64,000 bases of DNA from Salinadaptatus halalkaliphilus (GTDB lineage: Archaea > Halobacteriota > Halobacteria > Halobacteriales > Natrialbaceae), in NCBI RefSeq assembly GCF_006543045.1, contig NZ_RBZW01000003.1:186001-250000 (forward strand). The letters are read 5' to 3'. Under the pieces are notes generated by a model, which was not told the origin of the DNA, made no database searches, and saw only the letters and a program-made list of their open reading frames with translations. Below, one piece after another: positions 12,029-18,684 of the stretch. The translations under genes and the position numbers were made by a program. Numbering within the stretch: the first letter of the stretch is position 1; each line of letters begins with the position of its first letter.

Positions 12029-12208
12029 CGGTACAACGATATTACTCCGACGGGATAAACGCGCTGGTTGGGTGGGACGCGTAGTGAACTACCCCACCCT
12101 ACTCGCTCACCGCTGACGCGGTTCGCTCCTTGAGGGTGGGGCTTCCTGTTTCCACGACACGCTTTGCAGACACAACGGTGTCCACAGGGAGCGCAGTCTC
12201 CACAGGCG

Positions 12209-12372
12209 TTCGAAAATCGCCGAGCGATTTTCGCAGCCCATCAGAATCTTCCGATTCTGAGGACGTTGATTCGGAGTGACCCACTCCTACATCTTCAAGA
12301 CCGCGAGAAAGAATATTCCACGCCGTCGCAAAATCGCACGCGATTTTGCTGCCCGTCAGACGTAGTCTGACG
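12209..12372. repeat. four short perfect palindromes within tnpB
   Basis: Perfect stem-loops of 7-10 bp with 2-5 nt loops occur at about 12210-12231 (CGAAAATCGC / GCGATTTTCG), 12240-12259 (TCAGAATC / GATTCTGA), 12330-12351 (GCAAAATCGC / GCGATTTTGC) and 12356-12372 (GTCAGAC / GTCTGAC). They occur in pairs, each pair inside a stretch of TnpB that has no counterpart in ordinary family members. Confidence 0.65.
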
Positions 12373-12638
12373 ACCGCATTCGCATCCCTATCCGCCTCGA
12401 ACCCACACGAGGGACACGAGTGTTCACGAACCCACAGCGGTTTGTCCGTCTTGACACCACAGGACGCGCATGCCTTCGTCGTATCTTTCGGGTCAACCGC
12501 GACGAAGTGCGTTCCCTCACGCTCGCACTTGTATTCGAGCATCCGAAGGAATGTCCCCCACGCCGCGCCTGCTCGATTCCGTGAGTTACCAAGGAGTTCG
12601 ACCAGCCCCTTCGCATCCAAGTCCTCAACAGCCACTAA

Positions 12639-12717
12639 TACGGTTTACTGTAAGTCGTTACCGCCGAAACCGCGACCCGTCTGCGGTTTCGCCGGTAAAT
12701 CGTTACAGCAATCCGTA
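12639..12717 (+). repeat. TACGG-family palindromic miniature element inside tnpB
   Basis: A 79-bp element. The left end is TACGGTTTACTGTAA, the right end is TTACAGCAATCCGTA, and the two are inverted repeats with 13 of 15 matches. An inner palindrome is built on CCGCCGAAACCGC / GCGGTTTCGCCGG. It is flanked by TAA at 12636-12638 and 12718-12720, a 3-bp target duplication confirmed by the restored tnpB frame when one copy plus the element is removed. Confidence 0.85.
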
Positions 12718-13521
12718 TAAGTCGTACTCGGTGGCGTAGTAGTTCGACAACTTGTGGAGGAAGTCTCGTCGCTTTCGCTTGAGATTGGCGTGTCGTTCGG
12801 CCACGACCTGCCGTTGTTTCTCCCAATTCGCAGAGCCGTGTTTCTTCCGCGAGAGGTCACGTTGTGCGCGTTCGAGTCGTTCGCGCTCGTCGCTGAAGTC
12901 GGGACTTTCGATGGCGTACCCATCGGTGTCGTGGGCGTACTTGAGAATCCCCACGTCGATACCAACGACCTTCTCGGGCGTCTCTGGTTTTTCAGGCGTG
13001 GTTTCCTCCACGTCGATGCCAAACGTGGCGTACCATTCACCCGTGGGTTCTCGTTTGACCGTGACCTGTTTGATGGTCGCATTCTCGGGGATGTCTCGGT
13101 GGAGGTGAATCGGTATCTCACCGATCTTGCTCAACCACAAGACAGGCCGACCACTCGTATTCTTGAGTTCGAAGCCGGACTGGTTGTAGGTGAGCGACCG
13201 ATACTCCCGAGGCGGTTGCCACTTGAGCATTCCCACGGCGCGTCCGTTCTCCTTCTGTGCTTTGAGCGTGGAGAGGTTGTCGTAGACGCGCTTGACGACC
13301 ATCTGGAGGACTTTCGAGTGTACGTCAGTCAGGTCGTCCCACCACGTTTTGAGGTCGGGGAGTCGTCCCTGAACCTCGTAGCGGGCGGGAATGTCGTCTG
13401 TCTCGTTGAGCAGGTAGAGGACGTGATTGTACAGTTGCCTACAAGTATCGACGTGGTTCAGAAGCGTCTCGGTGAGGGCTTCTGGCGGGTTGAGTCGATA
13501 CTTGTAGTTGTACTGCATAGT

Positions 13522-13668
13522 CTACTCGTCTGAATCGGGTTCGGAGATGCGGACGACTTTTACGTCGGCTCCGCGCCAGCGTTTGGGAACGATGACGTGG
13601 GCGCTGTTGCCCGACGGTTTTGCCGTTCCATCGAGGACTTCCTCGCCTTCGATTTCAAATCTATCCAT
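13522..13668 (-). CDS. DUF2080-type transposase-associated small protein
   Basis: A 48-aa protein, MDRFEIEGEEVLDGTAKPSG then NSAHVIVPKRWRGADVKVV. It reads like a SpoVT/AbrB-type DNA-binding strand pattern and matches the small DUF2080 proteins that precede haloarchaeal tnpB genes. It ends 3 nt before the tnpB start, so they form one operon. An upstream in-frame Met at 13686 is less likely. Confidence 0.75.
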   Translation of the reverse strand: MDRFEIEGEEVLDGTAKPSGNSAHVIVPKRWRGADVKVVRISEPDSDE

Positions 13669-13775
13669 CACCGATGTATAGACCATGGATAGACATAAAG
13701 ATGGCGGTGGGCCTGTGGGCCGAGTGTCGCGGGTGTATGAGAACCGTGCGGCGCTGTATCCCCTCCCTACTGCGT

Positions 13776-13827
13776 CCTCAGAAATCGGAGATTTCTGATG
13801 TGCGAACGAGAACGAAGTTCTCGTCAA
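13776..13827. repeat. pair of short palindromes at the IS left end
   Basis: TCAGAAATC-GGA-GATTTCTGA (about 13779-13799) is a perfect 9-bp stem with a 3-nt loop. It is followed by an ACGAGAAC / GTTCTCGT stem (about 13804-13825). They are of the same style as the hairpins inside tnpB and may be structural ends of the IS1341-type element. Confidence 0.55.
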
Positions 13828-14030
13828 CGCTACTCGGTCGCTTCGCTCCCTGCGTGGCTCCTTGAGGAAGGGGACTTAGCGCCTAATTCCAGTTAATGGC
13901 GGGTTACAGCGGTAGCGAGGCGAAAGCCCACCCGTTCCCGGGTGGGATGACGCCAACGACGGATGTGTACGCTCGAGGAGCGGTCCGTCGAAGGGTCGAT
14001 TTCAAGAGGATCCGACACGTCGACTCGAGT

Positions 14031-18638: not shown

Positions 18639-18663
18639 GATGACTGTCCTCATACTGCCGGAC

Positions 18664-18684
18664 AAAAATCCTATCGGATTTTTG
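18664..18684. repeat. short perfect palindrome upstream of the SnoaL-like gene
   Basis: AAAAATCC-TATC-GGATTTTT, an 8-bp perfect stem with a 4-nt loop. It could be a terminator or belong to the same class of short palindromes seen in the IS1341 element. Confidence 0.5.

Follow-up and report, generated by a model that had tools for sequence, protein, structure and literature searches.

Palindromic elements that lie in frame within genes have been described in Rickettsia, and mitochondria also have hairpin elements. Rickettsia palindromic elements (RPE) are small, lie in intergenic regions as well as in frame within unrelated metabolic genes, and add a peptide to the proteins concerned (PMC10969869). 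The double-hairpin elements of Allomyces mitochondrial DNA, as outlined in PMC2800124 (citing Paquin et al. 2000), are two-hairpin units that appear to be mobile and have no flanking duplications; the same outline has mitochondrial hairpin elements present in genes and not removed from the transcript. In bacteria, CGTC-REPs are single hairpins of 8-9 bp that occur mostly as head-to-head dimers (PMC3733652). In haloarchaea, the nearest described repeats are PATEs and SMRs, which the relevant passages of PMC3119063 present as small transposase-free repeats tied to IS605-type elements. Here, we report that short double hairpins found within and next to a tnpB gene of Salinadaptatus halalkaliphilus very probably belong to an apparently undescribed haloarchaeal family of non-autonomous mobile elements, to which we give the working name DHE. 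The literature that we searched, with thin coverage of subscription journals, contains no account of such a family in archaea.

The window, i.e., the whole 64,000-nt stretch of DNA that was analyzed, carries a tnpB gene of the IS200/IS605 family (IS1341 type) on the minus strand at 12099-13518, with OrfB_IS605 and HTH_OrfB domains in its N-terminal part (12703-13518) and a Cas12f1-like_TNB domain in its C-terminal part (12099-12635). Since the gene is interrupted by an 89-bp insert, which splits it over two reading frames, this copy is probably a pseudogene. An ORF of 101 aa without Pfam match lies 5' of tnpB (13522-13827), and its C-terminal half resembles DUF2080 transposon-encoded proteins. 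The first-pass annotation of this DNA had pointed out perfect hairpins in the C-terminal region of TnpB, and these are real, with stems of 10, 8, 10, and 8 bp (the last had been given as 7). They form two units, both on the minus strand. Element B (12207-12263, 57 nt, 53.6 bits with the covariance model of the family) lies in frame in the 3' part of tnpB, to which it adds 19 codons (SSESEDSDGLRKSLGDFR...), and consists of two perfect hairpins at 12211-12233 (10 bp, 3-nt loop) and 12241-12260 (8 bp, 4-nt loop). After a CG, it reads TCC-TCAGAATC ggaa GATTCTGA-TGGGCTG-CGAAAATCGC tcg GCGATTTTCG-AACG. Element A (12324-12374, 51 nt, 28.0 bits) is also in frame, adds 17 codons directly 3' of the RuvC-III DANA motif, and has perfect hairpins at 12328-12349 (10 bp, 2-nt loop) and 12354-12372 (8 bp). 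Here, the CG is followed by GTC-GTCAGAC tac GTCTGAC-GGGCAG-CAAAATCGC gt GCGATTTTG-CGACG. The hairpins that had been noticed at the other end of the IS (13779-13825) proved to be a third pair, recognized as a family member by the model. This plus-strand unit of 55 nt (13775-13829, 56.7 bits) occupies the IS leader region, has a spacer of the TGTGCGA subtype, and is made of perfect hairpins at 13778-13798 (9 bp) and 13806-13824 (8 bp).

The six hairpins of the IS are thus three pairs, whose folding as single-stranded DNA gives z = -5.2, -4.8, and -3.9, with 0 shuffled sequences reaching the same values. The window as a whole contains 26 stems of at least 8 bp vs. 5-15 in shuffles. With a fixed threshold for paired hairpins, there are 15 in 857 kb of the source genome, a sample in which IS-rich contigs are over-represented, vs. 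2 in a second-order Markov shuffle. A hairpin at 18664, upstream of a SnoaL-like gene, had been considered similar to those of the IS. We rejected it as a member: it is a single hairpin (18663-18684) that has no partner, does not match the family model, and is at chance level. Stems of at least 9 bp number 8 in the window vs. 0-5 in shuffles, and hairpins of this kind are expected by chance a few times per 64 kb.

When the 3' ends of the tnpB genes of the source genome were aligned, the two stretches stood out as clean insertions, 51 and 57 nt long. The 57-nt insert, located between GAATCAACG and CCTGTGG, is missing in every other aligned copy, and its empty site was found with 0 gaps. The 51-nt insert occurs only in the window and in the C42 copy (G000:C42, L010), at the same site and with the same sequence despite different flanks. 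Another copy (C4) has a 54-nt unit elsewhere in the 3' region of tnpB, and in copy C21 a related unit with different spacers adjoins the right end. Since other TnpB copies are without the hairpin stretches and the positions differ, the tnpB hairpins are insertions. The alignment thus bears out the initial proposal that normal relatives lack these segments, and the insertion reading stands since most copies are without them, rather than all related TnpB proteins sharing them. Comparing 12324-12374 with L010, the 51-nt units are identical, while the TnpB sequences are 82% identical over 186 nt including the insert. An identical unit in diverged TnpB genes suggests local conversion or a target hotspot. 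At further tnpB 3' ends (L170, L175, L185, and L021), the omega-RNA-like core has insertions in it or nearby, namely units whose spacers are different (ATCTGCTC / TCGCATGGTC) or an additional unit of the TTCACCAGAC type.

Similar units are dispersed well beyond this IS. They share GTCC-TCAGA..-loop-..TCTGA-TGGGC(T/C)G-hairpin 2-(A/G)ACG, are 49-60 nt in length (~55 typically), and fit a consensus in which a CG is followed by TCC-hairpin 1-TGGGC(T/C)G-hairpin 2-AACG, with TGTGCGA and TTGGCT as spacer variants. The initial idea of a class of tiny mobile palindromes therefore needs to be split. Its mobile part holds, because the units are dispersed, have empty sites, keep the reading frame, and occur in many genomes; its description as 17-22 bp palindromes does not, because the unit is a double hairpin of ~55 nt with a conserved spacer. 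We likewise set aside any single-palindrome reading, the unit being two hairpins plus a fixed spacer. In the source genome, where the palindromes were also sought, the covariance model with strict filters finds 13 copies of this dispersed double-hairpin family. We scanned the genomes of 84,980 species with a pattern that required hairpin 1 and TGKGC and left hairpin 2 unconstrained; this returned 42 stretches, and 28 of the 28 matches with a second hairpin are haloarchaeal. In these matches, spacers and flanks are constant, while the second hairpins are perfect but different in sequence. Two haloarchaeal matches depart from this, one (L072) having no second hairpin 3' of the spacer and the other (L086) having imperfect stems. 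The IMG/VR viral contigs contain no match to the pattern.

The covariance model (R1) is positive in 52 of 61 Halobacteriales, with 299 copies in total, a figure that undercounts subfamilies with other spacers, such as the C21 unit and units with TGATGA and GGTT/AACC flanks. At E ≤ 1e-4, it detects the family in 28 of 33 Halobacteriales vs. 4 of 164 genomes elsewhere in the phylum, and copy number exceeds 20 in two genomes. The small haloarchaeal genome G046, with 35 model matches, contains head-to-tail arrays (L159-L163) that adjoin ordinary genes; acgtcc and tgggct/tgtgcga alternate as spacers in these arrays, which run to as many as 15 hairpins. Outside Halobacteriales, 12 perfect hairpins form an array (L178, G206:C119:2000-8000) in which gggaca and caagtctt alternate; the hairpin style is the same but the spacers differ, and this is possibly a second family. 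In two further genomes (G138 and G217; L165-L169 and L272-L275), a larger repeat (CCCCAGCCGGGAGG...CCTCCCGGCTGCCCCTTTGAGTCCC) encloses the double hairpin, with nearly all the copies listed on the same strand.

To search for empty sites, we fused the two flanks of every copy and matched them against all the loci fetched; 67 of the 146 copies had a precise empty site. The leader unit of the window is among these, with an empty site in L088. The similarity around such sites may be very high: a filled TnpB from Natrialba hulunbeirensis and an empty one (G016) are identical at 160 of 165 aligned nt (97%). If the boundaries are drawn at CG, the insertion comprises (CG)TCC...AACG and no target sequence is lost. 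The target profile of 127 copies shows that CG precedes the insertion and that position -3 has no preference; this profile is biased because both the CG and the outer CGT/ACG pairs are built into the covariance model, but the pattern scan, which made no use of them, agrees. Since CG is repeated at the right end of the unit and thus stands on both sides, a 2-bp duplication and a right end that matches the site look the same. The outer complementarity of the unit is only 3-4 nt (CGT/ACG), so it has no prominent terminal inverted repeats.

Within TnpB coding sequence, 18 of 18 inserts whose length is defined by an empty site are multiples of 3 (54, 57, or 60 nt), and these in-frame units add 17-20 mostly hydrophilic residues. 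Outside TnpB, this is true of 7 of 33, with modes at 55 and 56 nt. Since many TnpB copies share one site, the insertions may be inherited, and these frame counts are not independent. A 52-nt copy that is out of frame lies in the apparent N-terminal part of another TnpB family.

The units also occur inside host genes. The tryptophanyl-tRNA synthetase (TrpRS) gene of G025 contains a 60-nt unit in frame, which encodes 20 extra residues: YAYLLASD[VHENEDRSRAAHQNPKDSED]DDEFAK. TrpRS gives one match per genome at E ≤ 1e-100 in 29 genomes (a set that does not include G025). The unit is absent from 28-29 of 28-29 relatives, of which 27 align without gaps to the insert-free sequence and two show a 1-residue difference. 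In Halorussus aquaticus, two adjacent genes have units, one adenylate-kinase-like and the other hisC. The adenylate-kinase-like protein has 19 extra residues between residues 90 and 91 of Protein Data Bank (PDB) entry 4CVN, while HisC has 15-17 extra residues in PDB alignments with 3GET and 3FFH and, even with its insert, still scores above the NCBIfam equivalog cut-off. Finally, a PEBP/YbhB gene of Halorussus litoreus corresponds to an 18-residue gap in 3N08. All four host genes are antisense to the element and read it in one common frame, so that the added peptides follow the pattern DV(H/R/L)... and have many S, E, and D residues. These are the four clear cases among ~150 copies inspected and do not estimate a proportion. 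A trpB gene of Halopiger goleimassiliensis with two units was left aside as an example of tolerance, since an in-frame stop comes with the second unit and the genome contains a further trpB. Our genomes are one per species, and no transposition event or strain-level gain was seen among them. A single pair of filled and empty sites fits precise loss as well as gain, of which gain is favoured by the host genes, TrpRS included.

Could the hairpins be part of the scaffold of the TnpB guide RNA, as had also been proposed at the outset? The omega RNAs, or sotRNAs, of haloarchaea overlap the 3' end of tnpB (PMC12558985), the part of the gene in which elements A and B lie, and the hairpins would be stable in RNA. 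Element B is ~123 nt from the end of the IS, and a precursor could include it. However, most TnpB copies are without units. Of the 145 copies classified by context, 26 are inside TnpB coding sequence, 28 are within ~700 bp of a TnpB gene, and the remaining 91, i.e., two thirds, are elsewhere, including in host genes and in apparent transposase genes of other IS families. A unit of identical architecture is, moreover, present in the 5' leader of the IS. The window does contain an omega-RNA-like conserved structured core at the 3' end of the element (12085-12152, minus strand), which weakly resembles Rfam DUF3800-X (18.4 bits, whereas the gathering score is 38.2); it ends at 12152, and the units are at least 55 nt upstream. 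At the gathering threshold, an Rfam search of the window returns one tRNA and nothing else. A guide-RNA role is thus very improbable as a general explanation, to which the near absence of G-U pairs described below also speaks. Read as mobile insertions, the units complicate the annotation of both TnpB and omega RNA in haloarchaea.

The stems vary greatly while staying paired. In 117 distinct aligned copies, 97.7% of the pair cells are paired, and the changes in the stems are double-sided in 377 cells vs. one-sided in 12, in an alignment that was fitted to the structure of the model. G-U makes up ~0.5% of the paired cells, and the commonest form has perfect stems of 8-10 bp with triloops. Selection at the RNA level is expected to leave many G-U intermediates. 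Since the stems are variable, perfectly paired, and almost devoid of G-U, the pattern of substitutions points to a structure maintained at the level of DNA rather than RNA. In near-identical repeats of a genome that we take to be Haloquadratum walsbyi C23, the loops of the unit are inverted (TCC/GGA, CCC/GGG). Among close pairs with equal arms, which are not independent, the loops that differ are inverted in 10 of 77 and 8 of 57 cases vs. 8% and 4.5% expected; being only modestly above chance, loop inversion is suggestive and we discarded it as proof of template switching.

Perfect stems, double-sided changes, and the occasional inverted loop are also what would be seen if palindromes were formed locally and repeatedly by template switching during replication, with no mobile element involved. 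We regard this as scarcely credible, since 52 genomes have a common spacer skeleton and the same order of hairpins, and since the precise insertions of 51-60 nt do not copy their flanks. What template switching can explain is the upkeep of the stems rather than the spread of the units. For a mobile family, the double-sided changes almost without G-U might offer a natural record of DNA hairpin extrusion and template switching.

How does this family relate to the systems described above? Judged by analogy, DHE in coding genes seem most alike RPE in the way they work, since they too are palindromic and in frame in unrelated genes (TrpRS, adenylate-kinase-like, HisC, PEBP, and TnpB). The likeness is functional and we claim no sequence relation: RPE are ~150 bp long and found in Rickettsia, whereas DHE are ~55 nt long, consist of two hairpins with variable stems, have a CG target, and are haloarchaeal. 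In anatomy, though this says nothing of sequence, they are comparable to the Allomyces elements as outlined in PMC2800124, with two adjacent hairpins and no target duplication beyond the ends. They differ from these mitochondrial elements, for which the outline mentions no CG target, in having one, in the conservation of their spacers while stems vary, and in that their in-frame presence in host enzymes is shown against orthologs and PDB chains. As in REP/RAYT systems, there is a hairpin with an unpaired conserved tag and a dimeric arrangement, and CGTC also precedes hairpin 1 of DHE; unlike in these systems, DHE comprise two hairpins and two distinct spacers, no dedicated RAYT was identified, and copy number shows no significant correlation with intact Y1 genes. 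Notable here are 1) one family across most of the Halobacteriales sampled, 2) a minimal CG target at which no sequence is lost, and 3) insertion inside a single-copy aminoacyl-tRNA synthetase. Protein expansion by selfish DNA thereby becomes directly testable in genetically tractable archaea.

The segments might instead be terminal parts of the IS605-related PATEs, including their 52-bp terminal-only forms, or SMRs. In the presumed H. walsbyi C23 genome, the unit is indeed carried inside a repeated PATE-like segment that derives from a tnpB 3' end. According to the passages of PMC3119063 that describe them, PATEs have palindromes near their termini and no target duplication, and SMR-A elements insert into these palindromes. 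We nevertheless consider this identity improbable. Going by those descriptions, the size, double hairpin, CG target, spacers, and variable stems of DHE are unlike those of PATEs, which have IS605-like ends, or of SMR-A, which is ~110 bp long with terminal inverted repeats. DHE are smaller and insert alone, as host genes and empty sites show for the double hairpin, without ends of the IS605 type.

Genome comparisons establish dispersal, precise insertion 3' of CG, stacking, frame preservation, and structural conservation at the level of sequence. To account for these, we propose that the unit would spread as a folded single strand of DNA, recognized through its hairpins and unpaired spacers, and would be joined 3' of CG by a recombinase acting in trans, for which an HUH/Y1-like enzyme would be the nearest precedent. 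In an extruded hairpin, one arm could be re-copied from the other by template switching or mismatch repair, which would keep the stems perfect and also flip some loops. In the IS of the window, the units would ride along as passengers, tolerated by the leader and by the C-terminal part of TnpB, rather than belong to the transposition machinery. More broadly, we suggest tentatively, and with less than even confidence, that the identity of a DHE is inherited as its fold and unpaired spacers, while stems are continually rewritten arm-to-arm, moves to CG continue, and host proteins expand in frame.

In a narrower form of this proposal, the IS200/IS605 transposase TnpA (Y1, HUH) would act in trans, with one hairpin serving as a minimal left end and the other as a minimal right end. 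The paired hairpins, the unpaired conserved flanks, the right end that repeats the target, and the lack of duplication beyond CG are in keeping with it, since such a layout is that of IS200/IS605 ends. Copy number also correlates, albeit weakly, with the number of Y1 genes when these are counted irrespective of their integrity (rho 0.38). However, it shows no significant correlation with intact Y1 genes (rho 0.17, p 0.19), the mean being 4.9 copies in genomes with an intact Y1 transposase and 4.9 in those without. Several high-copy genomes have Y1 remnants or none, and copies are many without an intact Y1 in G012 (19), G027 (16), G029 (14), and G007 (7). In addition, the stems are too variable for the known sequence-specific binding of TnpA. 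We therefore view the TnpA form as rather unlikely. Since intact Y1 does not predict copy number, the HUH step of our general proposal gains no positive support from it either. The correlation with the number of TnpB genes is higher (rho 0.59), the elements sharing TnpB's habitat.

The 89-bp insert that splits tnpB in the window (12634-12722, strand unassigned) is MITE/SMR-like and of a separate kind from the double-hairpin elements, being uniform among copies and having 40-nt terminal inverted repeats that are 80% complementary. It has ~40 copies in the genome at roughly 90-100% identity, most of them at 95-100%, and a TTA duplication is possible.
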